From contig NZ_JACJOD010000031.1 of the NCBI RefSeq assembly GCF_014695385.1, positions 248,001 through 312,000 of the forward strand: DNA of 64,000 bases, given 5' to 3'. The notes beneath the pieces are model-generated. The model was not told the DNA's origin, made no database searches, and saw only the letters and a program-made list of their open reading frames with translations. Position 1 is the stretch's first letter. Every line of letters starts with the position of its first letter. The translations under genes and the position numbers were made by a program. Of the stretch, positions 14,489 to 27,797 are shown piece by piece. Origin of the DNA: Trichocoleus sp. FACHB-46. Its GTDB lineage: Bacteria > Cyanobacteriota > Cyanobacteriia > FACHB-46.

Positions 14489-15145
14489 TTAAGCGCAAAG
14501 TTTTTGCATAATCGCTTCATGGTCTAGCTGATTCTCTACCATAGCTTCTGCTGGCTCCAGCCGCTTGGCTAAGCCTAAGATAAAACGATTGCGATCAGCG
14601 CCCATTGATTCACAGGTCGTCTGCACACAGTAAAGGTCTTTATTGGTTAGCTGGCTGAAGAACGAGCTGAGAATTCCAGCTTCTAAAAAGCAGACCGGAC
14701 GATTGAGTTTAGGAGCATGCTGAGCAAAGGGAGAATTCACGATCTCTACCACCAAAAATCCTCGGTTTTGATGGGATTGATCTAAATCAATTTTCCCCCA
14801 ACCGTGAGTCAGCCAACATTGCTGTAGAGATTGCAAAAACTCAACCATTGCCATGTCAGCTAAGGCAGTGCCGTAATAATCGTTCAGCTCTTCGCAAAAG
14901 CGAGCATAAAAGTTTTTACCCCACCAGCGACCACAGTTCATTAAAACTAAACGAGTCGCTTGGCCTGTTTCTTTATCTAGGCCCGCATAAATGCCTTGAA
15001 TCAAAGTCTCAGGCAAGGCCAATAAGCGATCGCCTCGACGGTTTTCCAGTAGGCCCAGTTCTAGGTCGCCCTGAACATAAGCATCGGTCGCAAAATAATT
15101 GCCAGGAATACGATTATCAATCAGTAGATCAGCAACAGAAATCAT
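14489..15145 (-). CDS. V4R-domain protein, second copy
   Basis: This 218-residue soluble protein is homologous to the one at 16136-16819. Shared landmarks are GRWWGKNFYARFCEELNDYYG (compare CEWGQKDSFFFEKWFEKEF), the Trp/Gly-rich HGWGKIDLDQ, and the closing QTTCESMGADRNRFILG. The last matches the ligand end of the V4R (4-vinyl reductase-like) fold, but the second cysteine present in the other copy is arginine here. V4R domains bind small hydrophobic ligands, and bilin or tetrapyrrole partners have been suggested for this cluster in Synechocystis. It lies 91 bases after the globin-like gene and 13 bases before the kinase. It is probably cytoplasmic and associated with photosystem II assembly. 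Confidence 0.75.
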   Translation of the reverse strand: MISVADLLIDNRIPGNYFATDAYVQGDLELGLLENRRGDRLLALPETLIQGIYAGLDKETGQATRLVLMNCGRWWGKNFYARFCEELNDYYGTALADMAMVEFLQSLQQCWLTHGWGKIDLDQSHQNRGFLVVEIVNSPFAQHAPKLNRPVCFLEAGILSSFFSQLTNKDLYCVQTTCESMGADRNRFILGLAKRLEPAEAMVENQLDHEAIMQKLCA

Positions 15146-15236
15146 AAAAACTGCTCTAAAGAAATTCAGTGACGAATGGCTAGAAGTTTGTCAGAAAGTG
15201 AAGAGAATCGCGATCGCTTCAGGCTATCTCAAAACT

Positions 15237-15707
15237 TTAAGCCTTACCCTGGTTTAGTAACGTATTTTGAGCCAACGCTAGCGGCGGTTTCAACAAGTTC
15301 AACTGCTGGGGAGTGAGAACTTGGCTTAAACGCTGATTCAGGAACCGATACAGCGTCATGTCAACCGTTTGCGTATTATAGGTTTGGACCGTGCGAGTCA
15401 GCCAACTCAGCAAGCGATTCTGCACGAAAGAATTGTCATTAAGCAACATCGACATGGCACAGTAACGCAGCAGCAGCAAAGCATGCTTGATGCTCCGCTC
15501 TAGAGTTTCTGTTTCTTCCTGGGGCAGCGCTGCCTGCAATTGATTAGCGACCTGTTGCATCACGTCCAATTCCTGATCCCGCAGATGCCGATAGGCTTCT
15601 AGTCGTTGAGGCAAAGAGTCCACATACTGGCTTAAGACACCTAGTTCTTCAGGTTTTAAGTAACGACTCTCAGCTTCATCGAAAAGCGATTCAATTTGTT
15701 GGTGCAT
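15237..15707 (-). CDS. Phycobiliprotein-like globin without chromophore cysteine, copy B
   Basis: This is a 156-residue all-helical protein. The segment HALLLLRYCAMSMLLNDN matches the RYV-x-YA-x-x-x-GD helix of phycocyanin and allophycocyanin subunits, and the flanking helices fit the phycobiliprotein globin fold. The cysteine that carries the bilin just before that helix is absent, so covalent pigment binding at the usual site is unlikely. The protein is paralogous to the gene at 17187-17669. It lies between two V4R genes in the pap-like cluster. A structural or adaptor role in photosystem II or phycobilisome assembly is inferred from the neighbours. Confidence 0.72.
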   Translation of the reverse strand: MHQQIESLFDEAESRYLKPEELGVLSQYVDSLPQRLEAYRHLRDQELDVMQQVANQLQAALPQEETETLERSIKHALLLLRYCAMSMLLNDNSFVQNRLLSWLTRTVQTYNTQTVDMTLYRFLNQRLSQVLTPQQLNLLKPPLALAQNTLLNQGKA

Positions 15708-15818
15708 AATTACAGGCCAGATTTAGAAGTTGCAAGAAAGCGCTCACCCAAAAGCGAGCTGAGAGTGGCAAGCTAAGCTAACTATGAGAAGCCAAAGGGA
15801 CAAGCTAAAAGCGGCAGC

Positions 15819-16139
15819 CTAAAAAAGGCTAGAGAAATCATCCAGGGTCAAGTCATTCGCTACCGATACAGGTTGCGATGTGGGAGCTAAAACTGCCACA
15901 GGAGCCGCTGCCACCACACCTTCCCAGTTGATGGCACCAAAGAATTGGTTCACACTCAGAGTCAAGCTCAAAGGAGTGTTGGTTCCTTGTAATCCCTGAA
16001 GTTTCAGCTCTTGCACTTCAGCTGACTGGTCTTCCCAATTAAAACCTGTAAAAAAAGTTTGAACTGAGGACTGCAACCAACTCTTGGATTGGGTTTCAGG
16101 TTTAGTGCCATTGGGTGGAGCAACAGTGATAGCAGTCAT
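15819..16139 (-). CDS. Small protein with two FFxxxNWE motifs (pap-like cluster)
   Basis: This is a 106-residue protein with two copies of a short aromatic motif, FFTGFNWED and FFGAINWEG, about 45 residues apart. It has an acidic, Phe-rich end (LTLDDFSSLF) and an otherwise Pro/Ala/Thr-rich, probably disordered sequence. Its start codon overlaps the stop of the upstream V4R gene in ATGA (16136-16139), so translation is likely coupled. The repeated aromatic motifs in a flexible chain suggest a two-site peptide linker that holds two partner proteins together; that is inference. The gene at the equivalent place in Synechocystis (slr0145) is also small and uncharacterised. Confidence 0.75.
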   Translation of the reverse strand: MTAITVAPPNGTKPETQSKSWLQSSVQTFFTGFNWEDQSAEVQELKLQGLQGTNTPLSLTLSVNQFFGAINWEGVVAAAPVAVLAPTSQPVSVANDLTLDDFSSLF

Positions 16140-16819
16140 CCCAATCTATCCCCCAAACGTAGACGCTTCTCAATATCTCGTGCTGTAGCACCTTCATTGA
16201 GCCAGAAGGCAGCTGCATCAATCCGATCTTGTCCACCCAACAAAAACTTGCAGTAGGTCTCGCCCATTGAGTAGCACTGAATTTCAATGCAGCTCAGTTG
16301 CTTTTTCACCATTTCTGTAAAGAAGCCCGCAAATAAGCCTGCGTACAAATAACAAACAGGCTTGCCAACGTCCCCTAGGGAGCGAGCGACGGCTGAGTCA
16401 AACAGGTTGATGAACATAAATCCCTGTTTGCGATCGCCCAAGTCTACTTCCCAGCGTCCCCAACCTTGCGAGGTAAAAGGCCACCACCAAGTTTCTAGGA
16501 GGAACAATAAGTTAGTTTGGCGCATGTTGCGTTCAAACTCTTTCTCAAACCATTTTTCAAAGAAAAAAGAATCTTTCTGCCCCCACTCACAACCAATGGT
16601 GTACATGATGGCGGCAGAAGCATCACCGACTTCCTCTTCCAGACCTTCGACCAAGCCAATAATAAAGTCTTCACTGGTCAGAAGATTTTGACTACCGTTC
16701 CAATCTACGATCGTGCCGCGATCAGGATCAAACTGAAAGAAGTCTTTGAAGCCGTAGTGATTATGCTTCTTAGCAATTTTGTTTTTAAGGGCTTGGGAGC
16801 TGTTAGCTGCGATCACCAT
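16136..16819 (-). CDS. V4R-domain protein, first copy (Slr0144/Slr0147-like)
   Basis: This is a 227-residue soluble protein of the V4R type. Visible landmarks are AIMYTIGCEWGQKDSFFF, TWWWPFTSQGWGRWEVDLGD, GLFAGFFTEMV and the terminal ligand motif CIEIQCYSMGETYCKFLLGG with several cysteines. In bacteriochlorophyll biosynthesis and sensor proteins this fold binds hydrophobic small molecules. Here it belongs to the cluster resembling slr0144-slr0152, whose loss in Synechocystis reduces photosystem II assembly. Its stop overlaps the start of the next small gene by four bases. A 367-base gap upstream suggests an additional internal promoter. The ligand is unknown. Confidence 0.8.
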   Translation of the reverse strand: MVIAANSSQALKNKIAKKHNHYGFKDFFQFDPDRGTIVDWNGSQNLLTSEDFIIGLVEGLEEEVGDASAAIMYTIGCEWGQKDSFFFEKWFEKEFERNMRQTNLLFLLETWWWPFTSQGWGRWEVDLGDRKQGFMFINLFDSAVARSLGDVGKPVCYLYAGLFAGFFTEMVKKQLSCIEIQCYSMGETYCKFLLGGQDRIDAAAFWLNEGATARDIEKRLRLGDRLG

Positions 16820-17186
16820 AGGATGCTCTTGGCAAAGTGCAAATGGACTGAAATAGAAACAAACGTAAGGGTTTTAATTTGCGCTCTCACTCAGCTCACT
16901 GATCCGCAAAAATGGCTAGAGCAATGCGGCAGGCTGATGTTTAACAAAACTGCGTTCCTATTTTAAGGGCTGGCGAAACTAGAGGTTGTTGGGTCTTTAC
17001 AATGCTTAGTCTCTTAGGATCACCCACGGAGCATTCCAATCTGAAACAGTCTGCAACGGTCCGGGAAAATCCCAGCTTCCCCACTGATCAATATTCCCTA
17101 AATGCTATAAATCTAACAGTTATAAATCTATAGCAGCCCTAAATCATTGGAAAACCAGCCTAGTTTGTCAGAGTTGTGCTTCTCAC
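16820..17186. other. Intergenic gap inside the pap-like cluster, with a 10-bp direct repeat
   Basis: There is no convincing gene in these 367 bases; a plus-strand reading frame here only shadows the V4R gene. TATAAATCTA occurs twice, at 17106-17115 and 17121-17130, an A/T-rich direct repeat with a 15-base period. A promoter for the second half of the cluster could lie here on the minus strand. Confidence 0.5.
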
Positions 17187-17669
17187 CTAAGAATCCGGCG
17201 AGCCCCCTAGCAAAGCACGATTTAGCTCTAGGATGGGACAAAACAAACGGGCTTCTGGAGGAGTTAAGTGTTGCTGCACCACCTCTTGCATGATCTGATA
17301 GGTGGCATCGCAACTCCGTTGGGCTCCAAACGCTTTCATCACTGTTTGCATCCAATACAGTAGGCGATCGCGCAGCCAATCGGCATCATTGAGCAACATT
17401 GCGATCGCAGAGTAACGCAATACTCGGATGGTATCTCGTCGCCATTTCCCAGTTACATCTTCCGAGCCATTTTGAAGCAATGAGGGGTCGAGCGATCGCA
17501 GCTTGGCTTGTACCTGTTGAACAATGGTAGCCTCAGCTACTTGGAGTCTGGCATAAGCACTCAGGCGAAGATTAAAAGACTGAAGATAGTCACTGATGAA
17601 CTGTAGCTCTTCATCCGTGGCATATCGACCATCTACTGCTTGGCTCAGATATTGAATTTGACTCAGCAT
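17187..17669 (-). CDS. Phycobiliprotein-like globin without chromophore cysteine, copy A
   Basis: This is a 160-residue helical protein paralogous to the gene at 15237. KWRRDTIRVLRYSAIAMLLND aligns with the bilin-binding helix CLRDMDLILRYVTYAL of allophycocyanin, with the chromophore Cys replaced by a Trp/Arg context. The rest (DRLLYWMQTVMKAFG, then MQEVVQQHLTPPEARLF) follows the phycobiliprotein helix order. Two cysteines elsewhere (SCDATYQ and LFCPI) are not at the usual attachment sites. It is preceded on the same strand by the 2Fe-2S ferredoxin gene after a 174-base gap. Confidence 0.72.
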   Translation of the reverse strand: MLSQIQYLSQAVDGRYATDEELQFISDYLQSFNLRLSAYARLQVAEATIVQQVQAKLRSLDPSLLQNGSEDVTGKWRRDTIRVLRYSAIAMLLNDADWLRDRLLYWMQTVMKAFGAQRSCDATYQIMQEVVQQHLTPPEARLFCPILELNRALLGGSPDS

Positions 17670-17843
17670 GGGTGTGGAGCGTTGGCCAAAGGCTTAAGTT
17701 CTCTTAATAATGCCCCAGGTTTGAAGATTAGGAACACAACCAACCCCAACCTATGCGCTAAAGCGAGGAAAAGCTAAGGCAAAAAAGCTAGATCAATAGG
17801 GTCACTAAGTTGAAGATCGGATTCACTCCCCTTAGAACAGCCC

Positions 17844-18326
17844 TTAAACATCAGTGGTATGAGGGAAATATTCTCCGACTTTGAAACTCGTGTCTTCTAG
17901 TTGCTTCAGCATAGAACGAGTAATCAATTTTCCGACTTCAACTAGGACTTGGCCTGTAATCGGGTGGAGTAAATCTTGCTCGGCTCGTCGCCCGATTAGC
18001 GCCTCAATATCCTGTAACGAGTTGATGTACATACCAGGTGGTAGCTCCACCACCACACCATTGCCTAACACTCGCGATTGACAAGCGAGGCGGGAGTTAG
18101 GTTTGCATGTAGTAATGATTTCTAAAGTTCGCTGCTCCCGGCGGTTCATGGGGGAGAGGGAGTCCATCCCCTGGCTCACATAAACGTGACAGGTGGCACA
18201 CATGCCTCGCCCACCGCATTCTTTGAGCACGTCTAAGTCTTTGTTGATCAAAATTGAGAGCAGACTGCCGTTGGTTTCAACCGAAGTTTGCTGGGCGATC
18301 GGTTCTAGTCGAACAATTTTAGCCAT
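17844..18326 (-). CDS. 2Fe-2S ferredoxin, adrenodoxin-type cysteine spacing
   Basis: This is a 160-residue electron carrier. The cluster ligands are Cys37-x5-Cys43-x2-Cys46 (ECGGRGMCATC) and Cys82 (SRLACQ). That spacing belongs to adrenodoxin/Isc-type ferredoxins rather than the plant-type photosynthetic C-x4-C-x2-C pattern. A C-terminal extension of about 60 residues follows the ferredoxin fold. It begins 29 bases after the roadblock-like gene, so they are co-transcribed. It corresponds in position and type to the ferredoxin-like proteins of the Synechocystis slr0144-slr0152 operon. A role in redox steps of photosystem II assembly is inferred from that context. Confidence 0.87.
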   Translation of the reverse strand: MAKIVRLEPIAQQTSVETNGSLLSILINKDLDVLKECGGRGMCATCHVYVSQGMDSLSPMNRREQRTLEIITTCKPNSRLACQSRVLGNGVVVELPPGMYINSLQDIEALIGRRAEQDLLHPITGQVLVEVGKLITRSMLKQLEDTSFKVGEYFPHTTDV

Positions 18327-18355
18327 ATTTTTAACACCGAATTCTGTAGAAAAAC

Positions 18356-19309
18356 TTATGGAGATTGCTGTAATAAGATTTGTTTTTGGCGGTCATTTAA
18401 GGCTCTTTGCTCAACAATGGTGGGAAAGTCACGAATAACTTGAGAACACCGTTTGATGAACGCAACCACCCACTGCTGAATCCATTGCTGTTGTTCAGTC
18501 GTAATTGGTTGGTTGGTGCCTTGAGCCAGTGGGCTAGAAAAGGTGAGCTGAGCTGAGCGATCGACCTGGAAGTTATGCAACCAATCCAAATCCGGACGAC
18601 TAGATTTCCAATAGTTGGTGATCACTGCCGTACCAAGGTACTGGGTGGTGAACTGGCTCAGGTGATTGAGTGTTGTCAGTAGCTCCTTTAGATCTACAGG
18701 GGCATAACTAGGGGCATGGGACTCTAGGCCAACCGGAGGTGGAGTCTGCGGGGGTGTAGATGAACTTTGTTTACCATTTAAGGGTGTAACAGCAGGCTCT
18801 AAGTCTGAAAGGGATGGATTGATAGCAGCGGGTGAGTCGCGACTAAAAGAGCGAGCACCTGTGGTTAGGCTGGAGTCTAGAGTGCTGGTGGGGTTGCCAT
18901 CAATCCGCTGTTTCCAGTAGTTGTGGCCTGACATGGTGACATCGCTGGCTAATAAGCGGAAAGTTGCGATCGCGGTGGTGATGTCTTCTTGCAAAGCGGC
19001 TTTGAGGTTGACGATCGCTTCTAAATAGTCTGCATAAACTAGCTGTGAGCGTGCTAACACCAACAAAATAATGCCGTGCTCAAGTTTATAGATGAAAACT
19101 TGGTGCCCCGTGAATTGAAAGACGAAAGATTCAAATCCATCTGGGGTCGTTTCAACTACTTGCCGAATTCCTTGAGCGAGTGCTTCTTTCTGTTGAAAGT
19201 TTAATGTTTGATCGACGCCACAAAAGTAAGGGCGCGATCGCCCATCCATTAGGGCAACACCCGCAATTCCTGGTAAATTCAGAAAGTCCCGGACAACCTC
19301 CCGCTTCAT
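18356..19309 (-). CDS. Roadblock/LC7-like protein, first gene of the pap-like cluster
   Basis: This is a 317-residue soluble protein. The N-terminal ~125 residues look like a roadblock/LC7 fold: DFLNLPGIAGVALMDGRS with a strand turn, then HQVFIYKLEHGIILLVLAR and a long final helix. A Pro/Ser/Thr-rich linker (about residues 140-205) leads to a C-terminal domain with many Gln and Trp residues (QYLGTAVITNYWKS, PITTEQQQWIQQWVVAFI) that I do not recognise. The fold assignment is from the pattern only. As the first gene after the intergenic region shared with rbcR, it should carry the main promoter of the cluster. Confidence 0.62.
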   Translation of the reverse strand: MKREVVRDFLNLPGIAGVALMDGRSRPYFCGVDQTLNFQQKEALAQGIRQVVETTPDGFESFVFQFTGHQVFIYKLEHGIILLVLARSQLVYADYLEAIVNLKAALQEDITTAIATFRLLASDVTMSGHNYWKQRIDGNPTSTLDSSLTTGARSFSRDSPAAINPSLSDLEPAVTPLNGKQSSSTPPQTPPPVGLESHAPSYAPVDLKELLTTLNHLSQFTTQYLGTAVITNYWKSSRPDLDWLHNFQVDRSAQLTFSSPLAQGTNQPITTEQQQWIQQWVVAFIKRCSQVIRDFPTIVEQRALNDRQKQILLQQSP

Positions 19310-19556: not shown

Positions 19557-20564
19557 ATGTCTGACCTTCCTTTTACCTTGGATCAACTCCGTATTCTCAA
19601 AGCGATCGCCGCTGAGGGAAGTTTTAAGCGAGCCGCTGACAGCTTGTATGTCTCTCAACCCGCCGTCAGTTTGCAGGTACAGAATCTAGAGCGGCAACTC
19701 GATGTGCCGTTGTTCGATCGTGGTGGTCGTCGGGCTCAACTGACTGAAGCAGGTCACCTACTCCTCAGTTATGGGGAAAAAATCTTAACGCTGTGTCAAG
19801 AAACCTGTCGCGCGATCGAAGATCTGCAAAATCTTCAAGGTGGCACCCTAATTATTGGCGCGAGTCAGACGACGGGAACTTACCTACTTCCTCGCATGAT
19901 TGGCTTATTTCGGCAACAATACCCTGATGTCTCGGTGCAGTTGCATGTTCATTCCACCCGTCGAACCTCCTGGAGTGTAGCGAATGGACAAATTGACCTA
20001 GCGATCATTGGAGGTGAGGTTCCTCCTGAACTGCAAGATTCATTAGAAATTATTCCCTACGCTGAAGACGAACTCGCACTCATCTTACCTGTGTTTCACC
20101 CTTTTGCTAGGGTGAGCACGATTCAGAAAGAAGACCTTTATAAACTGCAATTTATTGCCTTAGACTCTCAATCCACGATTCGCAAGGTGATTGATCAAGT
20201 TTTAACGCGCTGTGGGATTGAAACTCGTCGCCTCAAGATTGAGATGGAACTCAATTCGATAGAGGCGATTAAAAATGCGGTGCAGTCGGGCTTAGGAGCT
20301 GCCTTCGTCTCAGTTTCTGCCATCGAGAAAGAACTTCAGATGGGGGTCCTCCATCGAGCCAGGATTGATGAGGTCGTCGTTCAACGGATGCTCTCTGTCA
20401 TTCTCAATCCCAATCGTTACCGCTCGAAAGCCGCTGAAGCGTTTCTCAATGAGGTTTTGCCTCGATTCAGCAACCCAAATCAGGCTATGAAGCAGCACGA
20501 GGCTGAACTTTTAGGATCACCTGCTTTGACAACCGTGGTTCCTAGCTCTAGTGGTATGGATTAG
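19557..20564 (+). CDS. rbcR: RbcR, LysR-family regulator
   Basis: This is a LysR-type transcription factor of the cyanobacterial and plastid RbcR/Ycf30 group, which controls Rubisco and carbon-fixation genes. The N-terminal winged HTH reads [20 protein letters not shown] then [13 protein letters not shown]. The effector domain begins at [15 protein letters not shown] and includes the strongly conserved [22 protein letters not shown] chose ATG 19557 because [14 protein letters not shown] is the invariant start of this group; the 13 codons before it are not part of the family. The protein has 335 residues. It is divergent from the pap-like cluster and 25 bases ahead of a Ser/Thr kinase gene. 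Confidence 0.94.
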
Positions 20565-20589: not shown

Positions 20590-22023
20590 ATGGATCTTTA
20601 CTGCACCCGTCCAGGCTGCCTAAGACCGCAAAATTCGTTTGCTGATTTAGATAACACCCAAGTTTTGAAAACAGTGCCACAAAAGTATTGCACCACTTGT
20701 GGCATGTCTTTAATTTTGCTGGGTCGTTACTTGCCACTGAAGCTCTTAGGCAAAGGTGGCTTCGGGGCTGCATTTCTGGCTCGCGATCGCTACACCCCAG
20801 CAATGCGCCAATGTGTGGTTAAGCAGTTCCAGCCGTCAGGTGACTTGAGTGCTGATCAGATTGAAGTAGCTAAAAATCTTTTTGAGCGTGAGGCCGAAGT
20901 TCTAGAGCAACTAGGCAACAACCACCCCCAGATTCCTGATCTATTTGCTTTTTTCTCCTTGACGGTGCCGAGCCGCACTTCTAATAAGCAAGACGAATTT
21001 TTCTACTTGGTGCAGGAGTTTATAGACGGCCAGAATATGGAGGAGGAGCTAGCTCAGAAGGGGCAGCTTTCCCAGGATGAGGTGGTGGAAGTTTTGGTGG
21101 AAGTACTGAAGATTTTGCGGTTTGTGCATGACAATCATTCCATCCATCGCGACATTAAACCCTCCAACATCATGAGGCACCGCAATGGTCGTATTTATTT
21201 GCTAGACTTTGGCGCGGTTAAGAAGGCGGCAGGCGCTACCTCAAAATCCTCAACTGGAATCTACTCCACTGGCTATGCCCCACCCGAACAAACCTCCGGC
21301 GGCCAAGTGTACCCCGCTACAGATTTATACGCCCTTGCGGTCACTTGTATTCATTTATTGACAGGCAAAGAACCTGGTGACCTCTTTGACTCTTACAGCA
21401 ATTCCTGGAATTGGCGATCGCAGGTAACGCTTAGCGCTCGCCTGGCTGATGTTTTAGATCGGATGCTCTTAGCCACACCAAGCCAGCGCTTCCAATCTGT
21501 AGCCGAGGTCACGGCAGCACTGGCACTAGGGGCTACCCCGTCAGTTTCTCCCCCGCCGCCTGTTTCCCCAGGTACTGCAGCAACTCCCCCGCCGCCTGTT
21601 CCAGTTTCCACTTCCCCGACTCCTCCACCACCACCTGTTGTTAGTCCTCCTGCCCCACCCTCGATGACTCGGCCTCGCTTCTCCACGCTGGAACTACTAG
21701 GTGGCGCGGCATTTACAGGGTTTGAGGGAGGACTAATTGCGATCGCGCTTACGAGCTTGTTCCAACCGCTTTGGATTGGGGTTGGAGTCTCGCTGTTGGT
21801 TTTGAGTGTCTTGGTGTGGGCTCAATCTCGGCGTGTGATCGAAAAGGTGGATCTGGTGATTATTACCGGAATTACGCTGGCTCTAATGTATCTGCTTAGG
21901 GGGTTCTGGACGTTGACGTTCTTCCCCAACATTTTAATTGTCGTGACCTTTGCTGGACTGATCGCGATCGCAGTGGCCGCTCTATTTCGTCTGGTTTACA
22001 CCCTATTGTCTCGTTTTCTGTAG
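20590..22023 (+). CDS. Membrane-anchored 4-Cys Ser/Thr protein kinase
   Basis: This is a 477-residue Hanks-type kinase of the cyanobacterial 4-Cys class. The N-terminal zinc-ribbon-like module has Cys5-x4-Cys10 and Cys34-x2-Cys37. The kinase domain shows LGKGGFGAAFLAR, VVKQF, HRDIKPSNI, DFGAVK and YAPPEQ, all catalytic residues present. A Pro-rich linker (PPPP and TPPPP runs, about residues 315-365) joins it to a C-terminal region with about four membrane segments. The architecture places the kinase in the cytoplasm and the end in the membrane. The next two genes follow at 9 and 6 bases and encode membrane-anchored solute-binding proteins, so the three probably work together as a sensor. Confidence 0.9.
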   Translation: MDLYCTRPGCLRPQNSFADLDNTQVLKTVPQKYCTTCGMSLILLGRYLPLKLLGKGGFGAAFLARDRYTPAMRQCVVKQFQPSGDLSADQIEVAKNLFEREAEVLEQLGNNHPQIPDLFAFFSLTVPSRTSNKQDEFFYLVQEFIDGQNMEEELAQKGQLSQDEVVEVLVEVLKILRFVHDNHSIHRDIKPSNIMRHRNGRIYLLDFGAVKKAAGATSKSSTGIYSTGYAPPEQTSGGQVYPATDLYALAVTCIHLLTGKEPGDLFDSYSNSWNWRSQVTLSARLADVLDRMLLATPSQRFQSVAEVTAALALGATPSVSPPPPVSPGTAATPPPPVPVSTSPTPPPPPVVSPPAPPSMTRPRFSTLELLGGAAFTGFEGGLIAIALTSLFQPLWIGVGVSLLVLSVLVWAQSRRVIEKVDLVIITGITLALMYLLRGFWTLTFFPNILIVVTFAGLIAIAVAALFRLVYTLLSRFL

Positions 22024-22032
22024 GCAGGATTC

Positions 22033-23109
22033 ATGGCTCAGAAAAATGAAACGGCTACACTCGTCTTGGCGCTTTTAATTACCCTTGGTTTAGTCGGCGG
22101 GGGTACTGTGTGGCTCATGAGACGCTCTGGCGCTCCATTAGGTGGGTTGCTACAGCCAACGTCACAAAAGAAATCTGACTCACGTAGTGATTTGCCACCA
22201 GCCGTTGCTAGCCAGCCAGGAAGCAAACTTCAAGGCTTTGCAGACGTTCAAAATATACCCTCTGGGTCCTTTAAGTACGGGGGCAGCACTTCGTGGGCTC
22301 CTCTGCGTTTAACCGTTGACTCCGCAGTTCAAGCAGCCAGACCTGAATTTCAACTGCGTTACTTGGGACCTGATTCAGGCTCGGCCAGTTCGGGTAGTGG
22401 CATTCGCATGTTAATCAACGATCGCTTGGCCTTTGCTCAGTCTTCTCGACCGATTTTGGAGTCAGAGGCAAATAAGGCAGAGCAACAAGGGAAAGAACTC
22501 AAGCAGATTCCAGTTGCGATCGATGGGATTGCCGTTGCGGTGAATCCAGGACTCAACTTGCCAGGGCTAACACTGGCGCAACTCAAAGCCATTTACACAG
22601 GCCAAACTACCAATTGGAATCAGGTGGGAGGCCCTAACCTTAGTATCACACCATACACCCGCCCCACGAACTCCGGTGGTACAGTTGAACTGTTTGTCGA
22701 AGATGTGTTGGGAGGGCAAACGTTCGGCCCTACTGTAGAATTTGTTTCTACGACCACACAAGCGATTCGCAAGTTGGCGGAAGATCCTGGGGGAGTGTAC
22801 TTTGCTTCCGCTCCCGAAGTAGTGCCCCAATGCACAATTAAGCCTTTACCTTTGTCTCGTCAGGGCAGCAGCTTCATCGCTCCCTATCAAGCGCCACTGG
22901 TTACCTCCTCGCAATGCCCCGCTCAGAGAAATCGGCTGAACACAGATGGATTTCAACAGGGACAGTATCCTTTAATCCGAAATTTGTACGTGGTGATTCA
23001 ACAAAATGGTCAAGCTGAAGAAAAAGCAGGCGAGGCTTATGCCAATTTTTTATTGACAGAAGAAGGCCAAAATCTAATTGCCAGAGCAGGTTTTGTCAGG
23101 ATTCGCTAA
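22033..23109 (+). CDS. Membrane-anchored PstS-like periplasmic binding protein
   Basis: This 358-residue protein starts with a membrane anchor (KNETATLVLALLITLGLVGGG), then a Ser/Pro-rich spacer, then a type II periplasmic binding fold of the PstS phosphate-binding family. Landmarks are YGGSTSWAPL, DSGSASSGSGI, GIAVAVNPGLNLPGLTLAQLKAIYTGQTTNWNQVGG and PTNSGGT, the last two matching the PstS ligand loops. No pstC, pstA or pstB is nearby. The gene sits between a membrane kinase and a second anchored binding protein whose N-terminal anchor is similar. A sensor role rather than transport is the better reading, by inference. Anion specificity is not certain. Confidence 0.87.
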   Translation: MAQKNETATLVLALLITLGLVGGGTVWLMRRSGAPLGGLLQPTSQKKSDSRSDLPPAVASQPGSKLQGFADVQNIPSGSFKYGGSTSWAPLRLTVDSAVQAARPEFQLRYLGPDSGSASSGSGIRMLINDRLAFAQSSRPILESEANKAEQQGKELKQIPVAIDGIAVAVNPGLNLPGLTLAQLKAIYTGQTTNWNQVGGPNLSITPYTRPTNSGGTVELFVEDVLGGQTFGPTVEFVSTTTQAIRKLAEDPGGVYFASAPEVVPQCTIKPLPLSRQGSSFIAPYQAPLVTSSQCPAQRNRLNTDGFQQGQYPLIRNLYVVIQQNGQAEEKAGEAYANFLLTEEGQNLIARAGFVRIR

Positions 23110-23115
23110 GCCGCT

Positions 23116-24534
23116 ATGTCACCCAAAAATGAAACTGCCGTTCTTGCTGCCTCATTGTTAATCACTCTAGGTCTTCTGGGGGCTGGTGCTTGGTGGATGA
23201 CGCATCGCACCCCTGGTTCTGGCATCAGCACGCTGCTCAATCCTAAAGCGGGTGAGTCTCCTGATGCCAAACTGGATTCCCAGCAACCCATCATTAGTTT
23301 TGGGGAACAGACGCTGAGCCCAGGAGCACCCAGCCCCCGCAAAGAGAACGGCATGAAAGCCCTTGCTCAGGAAAGCTATGACCAAGCAATTGGTAGTTTT
23401 ACGGCGGCTTTGAAAGAGCAGCGCAATGACCCCGAGACTTTAATTTTTCTGAATAATGCTCGTGTTGGTCAGCGCAAAAGCTATGCGATCGCAGTTGTAG
23501 CTCCTGTGAACACGGACCTAAATGGAGCTTTAGAAATTTTTCGCGGGGTAGCTCAAGCGCAAACTGAAATTAATCGGGCTGGAGGCATTAACGGCACATT
23601 GCTCAGGGTCGCGATCGCCAATGACGACAACAATCCAGAGCTTGCCAAACGAGTTGCTGCGGCCTTAGCAGAAAACAATCAAATCTTAGGGGTGGTGGGT
23701 CACTTTGCTAGTGACGCTTCTTTAGCAGCAGGCTCCGTTTATGAAGCTGAAGAGCTGGTTGCCATTTCTCCTGTCAGCACTTCTGTAAAACTATCAGGCT
23801 TTAGCAATTATGTTTTTCGCACTGTCCCTAGCGACTATGTGGCAGCCAGAGCATTAGCAGATTACATGCTGAGCAAGTTACAGCAAAAGAATGCCGCGGT
23901 TTTCTTCAATTCTCAGAGTAACTACAGCAAATCTCTCAAATCTGAATTTGTCAGCTCGGTTCTGACGCGAGGTGGACAAGTAACCGCAGAATTTGATCTG
24001 GCTGAGGCCAACTTTAGTGCGGCCAAAAGTATTGAGCAAGCCGTGAAGCAAAATGCTGAAGTGCTCATGTTAGCCGCTACGACCGATAGCCTAGACAGAG
24101 CGCTCCAAGTTGTTCAGCTCAATCGCAAACGCCTTGATGTTTTAGGTGGTGATGATGTTTACACCCCTAAAACCTTAGAAATCGGGGGCGATGCCGCCGC
24201 AGAAATGGTCTTGGCTGTGCCGTGGCATATTAACACTGATCCAACTTCTCCCTTTCCCCAGGAATCTCAAAAACTGTGGGGTGGTGATGTCAACTGGCGG
24301 ACTGCCCTGGCTTATGATGCGACGCAAGCGCTCTTTGCAGCCTTAAGGCAAAGCCCAACCCGAGCAGGCATCCAACAGGCGTTATCTAGTGCCGACTTCT
24401 CTACGACAGGCGCTTCAGGCACCATTCGATTTCTGCCTTCTGGCGATCGCAATGCTTCGGTTCAACTCGTCAAAATTGCTCCTGGCTCGCGATCGGGAAC
24501 GGGTTATGATTTTGTCCCTGTGCCATCACAGTAG
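23116..24534 (+). CDS. Membrane-anchored type I binding protein (branched-chain amino acid receptor-like)
   Basis: This is a 472-residue protein. Its anchor (KNETAVLAASLLITLGLLGAG) resembles that of the preceding gene. A short helical TPR-like segment follows (ALAQESYDQAIGSFTAAL, about residues 78-105), then a Leu/Ile/Val-binding-type receptor fold: YAIAVVAPVNTDLNGA, AQTEINRAGGINGTLLRVAIANDDNNPELA, LGVVGHFASDASLAA and VAISPVSTS. No permease genes are close. The shared anchor with the PstS-like gene implies duplication of the N-terminal module onto two unrelated binding domains. It is the end of the kinase set. The ligand is unknown. Confidence 0.87.
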   Translation: MSPKNETAVLAASLLITLGLLGAGAWWMTHRTPGSGISTLLNPKAGESPDAKLDSQQPIISFGEQTLSPGAPSPRKENGMKALAQESYDQAIGSFTAALKEQRNDPETLIFLNNARVGQRKSYAIAVVAPVNTDLNGALEIFRGVAQAQTEINRAGGINGTLLRVAIANDDNNPELAKRVAAALAENNQILGVVGHFASDASLAAGSVYEAEELVAISPVSTSVKLSGFSNYVFRTVPSDYVAARALADYMLSKLQQKNAAVFFNSQSNYSKSLKSEFVSSVLTRGGQVTAEFDLAEANFSAAKSIEQAVKQNAEVLMLAATTDSLDRALQVVQLNRKRLDVLGGDDVYTPKTLEIGGDAAAEMVLAVPWHINTDPTSPFPQESQKLWGGDVNWRTALAYDATQALFAALRQSPTRAGIQQALSSADFSTTGASGTIRFLPSGDRNASVQLVKIAPGSRSGTGYDFVPVPSQ

Positions 24535-25106
24535 TTGCCCACTCAGTTCCCGCAGTAATATTCCACCTCACTAATTTTGGCTTCGCCTGCCTAGGAGCAC
24601 CCTAAGTTTAATCTGGCGAAGTAATATAGCAATCCAAATGGGTTGTGCCTGTTATAGCAAGCAATTAATTTTGATTTCACTGTCAATTTAGCGAAATCAA
24701 CTGGATTTACACTGATATTTTCTGGCTTAACTAAAGATATACTGCTGTGGCAATCAGTACGAGATAATACTAAAACTGGACCTTGTCGCCTGCCAATTAA
24801 CTTAGTAAACAAGTTAACAATATTAATCATTTTATTCTTGTATAGCAGTTTCCAAGAATTTGGGAATAAATAGGATTTGGGACAGATATATCCTTTACGC
24901 GCATCACTCATTCACTACTTTAGGATAGCTATATATTTTTTTATTGAAGAACTAGTTAAAGTCCGGATTGAACAAAGAATTATTCCTACACTAGAATGAG
25001 TGGACTTCACCACTCTCAAGCCATCTTTACTAAATCCACTGCTTTCGCAGGGAATTAAAATAACAAGAGCTTGAAACAATAATTTTACAGCTTAGCTTTG
25101 CTGCCG
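24535..25106. other. Intergenic region, A/T-rich, no convincing gene
   Basis: These 572 bases separate the kinase/binding-protein set from the histidine kinase. A minus-strand frame at 24591-24911 has no recognisable domain and an A/T-rich composition, so I do not call it. Around 24626 the text TATAGCAATCC resembles one arm of the inverted repeat at 42759. The histidine kinase promoter should lie in the last ~150 bases. Confidence 0.5.
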
Positions 25107-27797
25107 ATGGATAGTGTAAATCAGCTATTAAAGCATGCGCCAATTGGCATTCTCTACGAAAGTTTAGAGGGTGGTATTTTAAAGGCTAACTCAGTTTTTT
25201 GTCGCTTGATTGGTTATAGCGAAGCTGAACTACGACGGCTAGATTATCGCAGCATTACTCATCCAGAAGATTTACCCTTAGAACTTAATTTACTACAGCA
25301 AATCATTCAAGGCCAGCCAAGTGAAACGGTAATAAAAAAACGCTTTTTCTCTCAGGATGGCTCGCTTATCTGGGCAGAAGTGAAACTGGCTTTAGTTGGT
25401 GAGCCAGTAGATGAAGACAGTTACCTGATGATTTTTGTCACAGACTTGAGCGATCGCCAGCGTGTAGCGGAAGAAATTCAACAGCGACGAGAACGCGAGG
25501 CCTTACTAAGTGACATTTCGGCCCAAATTCGCACTACGTTTGATTTCTCAGCGATCGTCCAGCTTGCCGTAGTCCGACTACAACAGGCCCTAGACACAGA
25601 TCGCGTCTTAGCTTATCAGTTGCTACCAGATCAAAGCGGCACCTGTATTGCCGAGTCAGTTAGCTTGTGCTATCCAGCAATGCTGGGGCAAAGTTTTCCA
25701 GCGGAGTGCATCCCTCCGCCTTATATAGAGGCATACCGTCTAGGCAAGCTTTGGTGTGTAGCCAATGTAGAGCAAGAACCTTTGGCAGACTGCCACCGAG
25801 CCATGCTCAAACAAGTGCAGACTCGCAGCATGATTGCCGTTTCTATTCAACGCATTCAGGAAACAGTAGATCCACAAAAGCGGACCTTGTGGGGCTTGCT
25901 GGTCGTCCACCACTGTCGAACTCCGCGAAACTGGACGACCGATGAGCAGCAATTAGTTCAAGCGGTCGCCGACCAAGTCACGATCGCGCTAGAGCAAGCT
26001 AGCTTACTGCAACAGTTGCAAACCTATGCTCAAGAATTAGAAGATCACGTCAACCAACGCACTCGATCTCTAGAGCGATCGCTGCAATTTGAGCAACTCA
26101 TCCGCAGCTTAACCGAAACCCTCCGCAAAGACTTATCAGAAGATCAAGTCCTCAAAGCCGCTGTAGAAGGCTTAGTCCAAACTTTAGCAATCGATGGCTG
26201 TTATGCCAGCCTGTTTCACCCCCGTCAGCGATCGCTAGAAGTTCGCTATGAACACTCCTCCCCTCCCTCAGATCAGTCCTTAGTCGGGCAACGCTTTGCA
26301 ATCCAAAGTTGGCCAGAACCATGCCGTCAAAAGCTCTTAGCGGGCGAAGCCTGTATTCATGAAGTTTCCTGGGCATCCCTTCGAGAGTTACCTTTACCCA
26401 TATTGGTTCGCAGCGATCGCGCTGCCTCAGAACCGTTAAACTCTGACTCAACAGTGATTACCCAACTGATTAGCCCCATCCTGGATAATCAAGGTTTGAT
26501 TGGAGCCTTGTGTGTCTACCACACTCAACCCCGCCACTTTGAGCCAGCCGAAATCAAGCTGATAGAGCAGGTAGCCAACCAATGCGCGATCGCCTTACGC
26601 CAAGCCTATTTGTATCGCCAAGAACATGAGCAACGCGCTAGCGCTGAGCATTTCCGTTTATTTCTAGAGAAATCGATTGATATCTTTGTCGAATACGACC
26701 AAGAGCAGCGGTATATAGCCATCAATTCCGCTGGCCTCGCCTTGTTGGGATACCCGCTACCCGAAGTTTTGGGTAAAACCAACCGAGAGCTGCTAGGTTC
26801 CTCCGGGCAGGAGCTTGATCAACTCATTGCCCAAGCCTTCAAAACCGGAGAACCCGTTTTCGTCGATCACGAGCTTTCTCTACCATCAGGCACCAGACTG
26901 TTTGAAACAATCTATACACCCATCGCTGATCCAGCCGGAGTTGTGCAGCGAGTCGTGGGAGTCTGTCGAGACATCAGCGATTTTAGAAGACAGTGGCAAC
27001 TCTTAGAAACTCAAAATCATCAACTCACTGAAACAACTCGGCTAAAAGAAGAATTCATTGCGACTACTAGCCATGAATTGCGGACCCCTCTGACCGCGAT
27101 TTTGGGGTTCTCCAACGTTCTATTGCAAGAATTTTTTGGCCAGCTCAATCCCAAACAAAAAGACTATATCGAGCGCATCCACCTGAGCGGGCAGCACCTG
27201 CTCGACTTAATTAATGACATTTTGGATTTGTCACGCTTAGAGGCCGATCGCCTAGAACTCGAACCTCAGCAGATTTTTATCAATGATATTTGTGAAAGCG
27301 TCATTAGTTTGATTCAAGAGCATGTCGAGAATCAAAATCTGAGCTTAGAAATGGAAGTTGAGCCAGAACTAGAATATATCGTGGCTGATCCTAGACGCCT
27401 CAAACAGATGTTGCTTAACCTACTGACCAATGCCGTGAAGTTCACTCCAGCGGGGGCAGTGGGAATGAAAGTCTACCGCTCTCACCAGCAACAATCCGAT
27501 AGTATCCCAGATACCGTTAATTTTCTGGTGTGGGACACAGGAATTGGCATCGCCAAAGCCGAGCAAGATCTACTATTTACGCCATTCTCACAAATTGACA
27601 ACTCTCTGTCTCGGCAACACCAAGGCAGCGGACTAGGGCTGGTAATTACCCGCAAGTTAGCAGAACTCCATGGCGGCTCCATTACACTGGAGTCTGAGAG
27701 CGGAAACGGGTCACGCTTTATCCTGTCCTTGCCACTACAAGAGTCTGCGCAGCCCTTGCTAGGCTTGAATTACATAGCCATAAAGCCCATGACCTAG
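25107..27797 (+). CDS. PAS-GAF-GAF-PAS hybrid sensor histidine kinase with possible dual-Cys bilin GAF
   Basis: This is an 896-residue soluble kinase. Domains in order are PAS (about 5-115), GAF1 (140-295), a coiled coil, GAF2 (335-505), PAS (515-635), HisKA with phosphoacceptor His656 in SHELRTPL, and HATPase with N-box, DTGIGI and GSGLGLVI. GAF1 has the phytochrome/cyanobacteriochrome signature: Cys229-His230 (DCHRAML) and LWGLLVVHHC. It also has Cys201 exactly 28 residues earlier, at the place of the DXCF second cysteine, here written AECI. It may therefore bind a bilin and respond to violet, blue or green light. GAF2 has no such cysteine. No response regulator is adjacent. ATG 25107 is preferred to the TTG nine bases upstream. 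Confidence 0.85.
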   Translation: MDSVNQLLKHAPIGILYESLEGGILKANSVFCRLIGYSEAELRRLDYRSITHPEDLPLELNLLQQIIQGQPSETVIKKRFFSQDGSLIWAEVKLALVGEPVDEDSYLMIFVTDLSDRQRVAEEIQQRREREALLSDISAQIRTTFDFSAIVQLAVVRLQQALDTDRVLAYQLLPDQSGTCIAESVSLCYPAMLGQSFPAECIPPPYIEAYRLGKLWCVANVEQEPLADCHRAMLKQVQTRSMIAVSIQRIQETVDPQKRTLWGLLVVHHCRTPRNWTTDEQQLVQAVADQVTIALEQASLLQQLQTYAQELEDHVNQRTRSLERSLQFEQLIRSLTETLRKDLSEDQVLKAAVEGLVQTLAIDGCYASLFHPRQRSLEVRYEHSSPPSDQSLVGQRFAIQSWPEPCRQKLLAGEACIHEVSWASLRELPLPILVRSDRAASEPLNSDSTVITQLISPILDNQGLIGALCVYHTQPRHFEPAEIKLIEQVANQCAIALRQAYLYRQEHEQRASAEHFRLFLEKSIDIFVEYDQEQRYIAINSAGLALLGYPLPEVLGKTNRELLGSSGQELDQLIAQAFKTGEPVFVDHELSLPSGTRLFETIYTPIADPAGVVQRVVGVCRDISDFRRQWQLLETQNHQLTETTRLKEEFIATTSHELRTPLTAILGFSNVLLQEFFGQLNPKQKDYIERIHLSGQHLLDLINDILDLSRLEADRLELEPQQIFINDICESVISLIQEHVENQNLSLEMEVEPELEYIVADPRRLKQMLLNLLTNAVKFTPAGAVGMKVYRSHQQQSDSIPDTVNFLVWDTGIGIAKAEQDLLFTPFSQIDNSLSRQHQGSGLGLVITRKLAELHGGSITLESESGNGSRFILSLPLQESAQPLLGLNYIAIKPMT

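Follow-up and report, generated by a model that had tools for sequence, protein, structure and literature searches.

Two-cysteine photosensors are already well known among the cyanobacteriochromes. In the known two-Cys sensors the second Cys adds to C10 of the bilin; the conjugation becomes shorter, the resulting state absorbs blue light, and illumination cleaves the bond again (PMC6628166, PMC10296107). The DXCF type (TePixJ, Tlr0924) combines the canonical Cys with a second Cys 28 residues earlier. The CIP motif is also known, from the DXCIP lineage (Fushimi 2016, as cited in PMC5578081 and PMC6628166), which has an Asp-Xaa-Cys-Ile-Pro motif and is without the canonical Cys (PMC5578081). In the red/blue dual-Cys sensor AM1_1186g2, of the extended red/green lineage, the second Cys lies in helix alpha-3 and adds to C10 (PMC6628166). 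The second Cys of the DXCF motif has been regained in the extended red/green lineage (PMC11284453), so there is a precedent for another lineage acquiring a Cys of this kind. In green/red sensors the dark state is a deprotonated green state (PMC5578081), and the residue after the canonical Cys is Leu in CcaS and RcaE (PMC9415938). The blue/orange sensor Oscil6304_2705 has been proposed to return by way of a green intermediate (PMC10296107). Taken with the green dark state of the green/red sensors, this intermediate suggests that a thiol at C10 would bring a green/red-like pocket close to a blue/orange or blue/red sensor.

In this study we focus on GAF1, the first GAF domain of a sensor histidine kinase from Trichocoleus sp. 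FACHB-46, encoded in the 64,000-nucleotide stretch of DNA that was analysed as a whole (hereafter the window). Pfam domains follow in the order PAS, GAF, GAF_2, PAS_4, HisKA and HATPase_c (Table 1). No receiver domain was found by Pfam in the kinase of the window (E ≤ 0.001) or in eight orthologues (E ≤ 1e-5); the protein is therefore a plain sensor kinase and not a hybrid kinase, as it had been called in a reading made from the DNA letters before this analysis (the sequence-only reading). The ATG start, on which that reading based its numbering, is more likely than the upstream TTG; the two GAF1 cysteines it described are residues 201 and 229 from the ATG, and 204 and 232 from the TTG. The frame is open and the codons could be located: Cys201 precedes Cys229-His230 by exactly 28 residues and stands within AECI (AECIPP), and the Y-x-E-x-Y-x-x-G-K pattern reads YIEAYRLGK, both as first described.

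Table 1. Positions in the window of the sensor kinase, its domains, key GAF1 codons and neighbouring genes.
Feature	Position	Strand	Basis or remark
Sensor histidine kinase ORF	25098..27797	+	899 aa from TTG 25098, 896 aa from ATG 25107
N-terminal PAS	25122..25445	+	Pfam PF00989, residues 9-116 numbered from TTG
GAF1, bilin-GAF type	25545..25991	+	Pfam PF01590, residues 150-298
Cys180 codon, third invariant Cys, putative beta-2 Phe column	25644..25646	+	Alignment of 21 orthologues
Glu200 codon, aligned with Glu of RcaE protochromic triad	25704..25706	+	RcaE alignment
Cys201 codon, second-Cys position, 28 before Cys229	25707..25709	+	ORF translation, 21/21 orthologues
Trp216 codon, clade mark	25752..25754	+	21/21 members vs 1/94 other GAF rows
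Cys229-His230 codons, canonical bilin Cys with the residue after it	25791..25796	+	Cys229 codon 25791-25793
GAF2, poorly conserved, without bilin Cys pair	26133..26597	+	Pfam PF13185, residues 346-500
Second PAS	26664..26990	+	Pfam PF08448, residues 523-631
HisKA and HATPase_c kinase core	27045..27740	+	Pfam PF00512 650-716, PF02518 764-881
V4R-domain protein	14489-15145		Only weak NCBIfam match of the same kind
V4R-domain protein	16136-16819		Pfam
Phycobiliprotein-like protein	17187-17669		
2Fe-2S protein	17844-18326		

A search with GAF1 in 388 genomes of the class gave matches at E ≤ 1e-32 in 15 genomes, that of the window included, and a profile search recovered the same 15 at E ≤ 7e-78, well separated from the next match at 5.6e-50; either the best 9 (GAF1 search) or the best 8 (profile search) candidates per genome were scored. 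The scan of the named genome contigs kept 80 of 93 relatives, 15 of which (loci L025-L039) are members by motif and score; Leptolyngbyaceae, Oscillatoria, Microcoleus, Stenomitos and Lyngbya are represented among others. With L001, L009, L010, L012, L017 and L018 they make up 21 distinct members, which are partly kin, three coming from one genus and three being close Oscillatoria; L011, L015, L016 and L019-L024 repeat loci already counted and were left out. Whole-kinase identity to the window protein is 46-62% in L025-L039, over 800-936 aligned residues in 14 of these loci and 597 in L036, and by these alignments they are a clean orthologue group, orthologous along the length of the kinase. 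Furthermore, ten of the fifteen loci hold a homologue of a gene neighbouring the window kinase, either upstream (L025, L026, L029, L031, L033, L037) or downstream (L028, L030, L033, L036, L039); among the remaining five, some loci come from contigs of short length.

The window kinase contains 14 cysteines. Five are invariant in the 21 members, namely Cys32 in the PAS domain, Cys180, Cys201 and Cys229 in GAF1, and Cys729 in the kinase region. Since Cys201 never varies in the 21 distinct orthologues, the idea that it is a chance cysteine is rejected. The residue at its -2 position is Ala (13 members), Ser (6), Gly (1) or Val (1), the one at +1 is Ile (19), Leu (1) or Val (1), and Pro occupies +2 in every member. 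The Glu200 column, at -1, holds Glu in 14, Asp in 6 and Gln in 1, and the Met242 column, thirteen residues after the canonical Cys, holds Met in 16, Ile in 2, and Ala, Leu and Thr in one each. Tyr210, Gly213, Arg/Lys214 and His268 are retained throughout. The sequence-only reading had named orthologues lacking the Cys-His pair as evidence that would speak against it: the cysteine of the pair stands in all 21, but the histidine gives way in three (His 18, Tyr 2, Phe 1). GAF1 has 27 invariant columns and GAF2 only 1, a figure lowered by L036, in which Pfam finds no GAF2. This member (L036:6837-9713) does carry a GAF1, and because of it GAF2 is, on domain matches, dispensable for the architecture, with GAF1 retained.

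Cys180, absent from the sequence-only reading, is as invariant as Cys201 and Cys229. Of 94 other GAF rows, none has a Cys at the 180 column, 35 have one at the 201 column and 46 at the 229 column. These rows were left after dropping 30 clade copies, 9 weak or short rows and 5 duplicates; among them are five PDB rows, a large number of near-identical Nostocaceae rows and some dozen GAF2-like rows whose fit at the compared columns is poor. The fairer control for Cys180 is the set of 46 rows with the canonical Cys rather than all 94, and here the column holds Val (26), Ile (13), Phe (5), Pro (1) or Thr (1), and no Cys. In the GAF1 model Cys180 belongs to the second strand (residue 55 of 53-60), and the alignment places it on a Phe in 6bhn and on a Val in TePixJ, in a column that we take, from NpR6012g4 residue numbers, to be the beta-2 Phe position of red/green cyanobacteriochromes. 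The beta-2 Phe is described as trapping ring D (PMC5578081).

The comparison rows also brought out a conserved cyanobacteriochrome-like GAF group in Nostocaceae loci (L044, L048, L054, L056-L060 and others). Its second-Cys column is Tyr and its canonical-Cys column Ser (or Thr, Asn, Lys), in most cases with His as the next residue. Such domains may hold a bilin non-covalently or not at all.

In the alignment, Cys201 shares its column with the Cys of the DPCF motif of TePixJ. GAF1 thus resembles the DXCF sensors in having the canonical Cys and a second Cys with the 28-residue spacing, but neither their Asp at -2 nor their Phe at +1 occurs in any of the 21 members, which have the extra Cys180. 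The Cys-Ile-Pro at the second-Cys position of the window protein is shared with DXCIP sensors, but these have Asp at -2 and no canonical Cys, and the window clade is the reverse in 21/21; membership of DXCIP was accordingly rejected, the two being set apart by the description of that lineage. A DNA pattern for D-x-C-I-P GAFs matched in 3 of the 388 genomes, all of one genus of small genomes, and its reversed control matched once. AM1_1186g2 is alike in that its second Cys lies outside a DXCF motif, and unlike in the helix position of that Cys and in its lineage.

The model of GAF1 (44 sequences) has a pLDDT of 89.1 and a pTM of 0.86. The 50 rows listed by Foldseek and VIA-align are phytochrome-family structures, the top VIA-align row listed being 6oaq_A (Z 26.0, rmsd 1.3, 166 aligned). 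The best solved sequence match is RcaE (8k9o, E 3.8e-24). By sequence, predicted fold and canonical Cys, GAF1 is a GAF domain of bilin type and a candidate member of the cyanobacteriochrome superfamily. The alignment with RcaE places Glu200 and Cys201 on the Glu and Val of FPQEVFP; it pairs His230 with the Leu that follows the canonical Cys, and Met242 with the Lys thirteen positions past that Cys; the Glu, Leu and Lys are presumably the protochromic triad Glu217, Leu249 and Lys261. Moreover, 15 of the 16 highest-ranking non-member rows from the profile search were retrieved and inspected, and 14 of these 15 are of the green/red type, with FP[AEQ]EVFP, Cys-Leu, the Lys, and Val at the Cys201 position; the remaining one, L136, has DPCF with Cys-His. 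The AECI site looks like a green/red-type FPxEVFP motif in which Val has become Cys, the triad acid being kept and the other two triad residues changed. The sequence-only reading had seen in it a changed DXCF motif: the changed surroundings of the second Cys are real, but the FPxEVFP motif with Val replaced by Cys fits better, and a worn-down DXCF, given the absence of Asp at -2 and the motif of the near loci, is not the best reading. GAF1 is like RcaE and CcaS in FPxE-(V/C)-(F/I)-P, the acid at -1, the canonical Cys and its best sequence match, and unlike them in having Cys for Val, His for Leu, Met for the triad Lys, and Cys180 in addition; across the members the protochromic Glu column is largely kept, whereas Leu after the Cys and the triad Lys are not found.

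Two trees were built with the three Cys columns blanked. The 71-row tree, drawn from the clade, the PDB set, rows that have the canonical Cys and four that lack it, places the clade in a single group (100/100) and joins it to three RcaE-like rows at 97/67. The 82-row tree takes in the clade, the PDB set, rows that have the canonical Cys, and L124-L138, which bring 14 further green/red rows. Here too the clade comes out as a single group (100/99), and 17 green/red rows cluster at 86/72, but the clade and this cluster are not sisters; the bootstrap of this tree had not settled; when it is rooted on TePixJ, the smallest group holding both comprises 46 of the 82 rows, 8 others among them, at 48/81. 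A firm sister relation to RcaE/CcaS, suggested by the smaller tree, was dropped on this ground. The tie between the clade and the green/red sensors thus rests on scores and the common motif, and the tree does not firmly join them. A single clade for all rows with Cys at the 201 column was also rejected (p-AU 0.0006, 55 of the 71 rows), this column changing 6 times on the tree, a count in which losses and regains are indistinguishable.

Several genes beside the kinase (window 14489-19309 on the minus strand and 20590-22023 on the plus strand) encode two V4R-domain proteins, a phycobiliprotein-like protein, a 2Fe-2S protein, a 317-aa protein without a family, and a Ser/Thr kinase, which carries a 4-Cys prefix. 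This neighbourhood resembles the slr0144-slr0152 operon of Synechocystis. That operon is described as acting in photosystem II assembly (PMC9145668). In L025, L026, L029 and L037, too, the sensor kinase is flanked by homologues of the genes for the 2Fe-2S protein, the 317-aa protein, the LysR regulator and the Ser/Thr kinase. The LysR-family regulator (19557-20564) is 86-92% identical to its homologues in these four loci, far above the conservation of its neighbours, and no NCBIfam equivalog above cut-off was found for it among the 25 matches listed. Directly upstream of the sensor kinase (22033-24534) lie genes for two solute-binding proteins of extracytoplasmic type, a PstS-like PBP_like_2 and a Peripla_BP_6 protein, the first of which has homologues beside the kinase in L025, L029, L031 and L033; the two might feed the same pathway as the sensor kinase. 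In its own genome GAF1 has 37 matches at E ≤ 0.001, several of them of DXCF type (L003-L008), and the organism is thus rich in such sensors.

On balance we consider it rather probable that GAF1 senses light through a covalently bound bilin and goes through a two-Cys photocycle in a green/red-like pocket; the photochemistry that we infer would run as follows. Cys229 would bind phycocyanobilin at ring A; the genome has one bilin reductase match, PcyA (phycocyanobilin:ferredoxin oxidoreductase, 343.9 bits against a cut-off of 206). Cys201, at the second-Cys place of DXCF sensors on an FPxE-(V>C) motif, would add reversibly to C10, and the 15Z dark state would absorb in the violet-blue. Light would flip C15=C16 and the C10 thioether would break, giving an orange-to-red 15E state, or a green one if the bilin were converted to phycoviolobilin. 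Glu200 and His230 may steer the protonation of the bilin, Cys180 would pack near ring D, where other sensors carry Phe or Val, and the signal would pass to the HisKA/HATPase core and from there to a separate response regulator. The claim of the sequence-only reading, a dual-Cys bilin GAF in which the surroundings of the second Cys have changed, is well supported by conservation, predicted fold and family matches, and its further suggestion of a new spectral variant is plausible. Two features speak most strongly against a standard two-Cys cycle: Asp is missing at -2, and Cys229 is followed by Tyr or Phe in 3 of the 21 aligned members. Sato's 2019 work reportedly found the Asp at -2 to be needed for adduct formation in one blue/orange sensor. 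The change of two of the three protochromic-triad residues also counts against our explanation, as does the lack of a firm junction with the green/red sensors in the tree.

A bilin sensor without the C10 adduct, in which Cys201 would shape the pocket and the photocycle would use a single Cys (green/red or red/orange, as in the RcaE/CcaS-type relatives), could account for the top scores to green/red GAFs, for the acid at -1, which is that of the green/red lineage, and for the missing Asp; we hold it to be unlikely, since Cys201 is fixed in all members where the near loci almost always have Val, and since two triad residues are replaced. That Cys180 and Cys201 are both invariant, and both in the bilin pocket by alignment and by the beta-2 Phe positions, is consistent with a redox-gated light sensor, in which a disulfide between them, or another exchange, would decide whether the C10 adduct can form, a reading that seems to us quite improbable. 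Several conserved Cys and His in one domain could likewise belong to a thiol, metal or redox sensor reusing the GAF pocket without a bilin; this we find very improbable, given that the canonical Cys, Arg/Lys214, Tyr210 and His268 are retained, that the best fold matches listed are phytochrome-family structures, and that PcyA is encoded in the genome. A bolder proposal, which we rate as unlikely, is that all three cysteines are active, Cys229 at ring A, Cys201 at C10 and Cys180 at ring D, the last taking part in the photocycle through a reversible bilin bond of its own or a disulfide with Cys201; light colour and redox would then be read together by a domain that would have arisen on a green/red-like pocket when the Val next to the protochromic Glu became Cys.

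In the literature searched, which covers few of the journals of the field, we found no account of a lineage in which the canonical Cys goes together with both a second Cys that has an acid at its -1 position and a third, invariant Cys at the beta-2 column. Our comparison suggests that the window clade is a distinct sub-type of a known light-sensor family. If the spectra of the two-Cys bilin sensor proposed here follow its sequence, the clade would represent another route to a two-Cys photocycle, in which the acid stands at -1 and not, as Asp, at -2, and would offer a direct test of a protochromic Glu working with a C10 thiol. Moreover, a Cys fixed at the column of the beta-2 Phe, which faces ring D, would provide a means of studying how ring D is tuned in small photosensors and how thiols or redox state may gate them.
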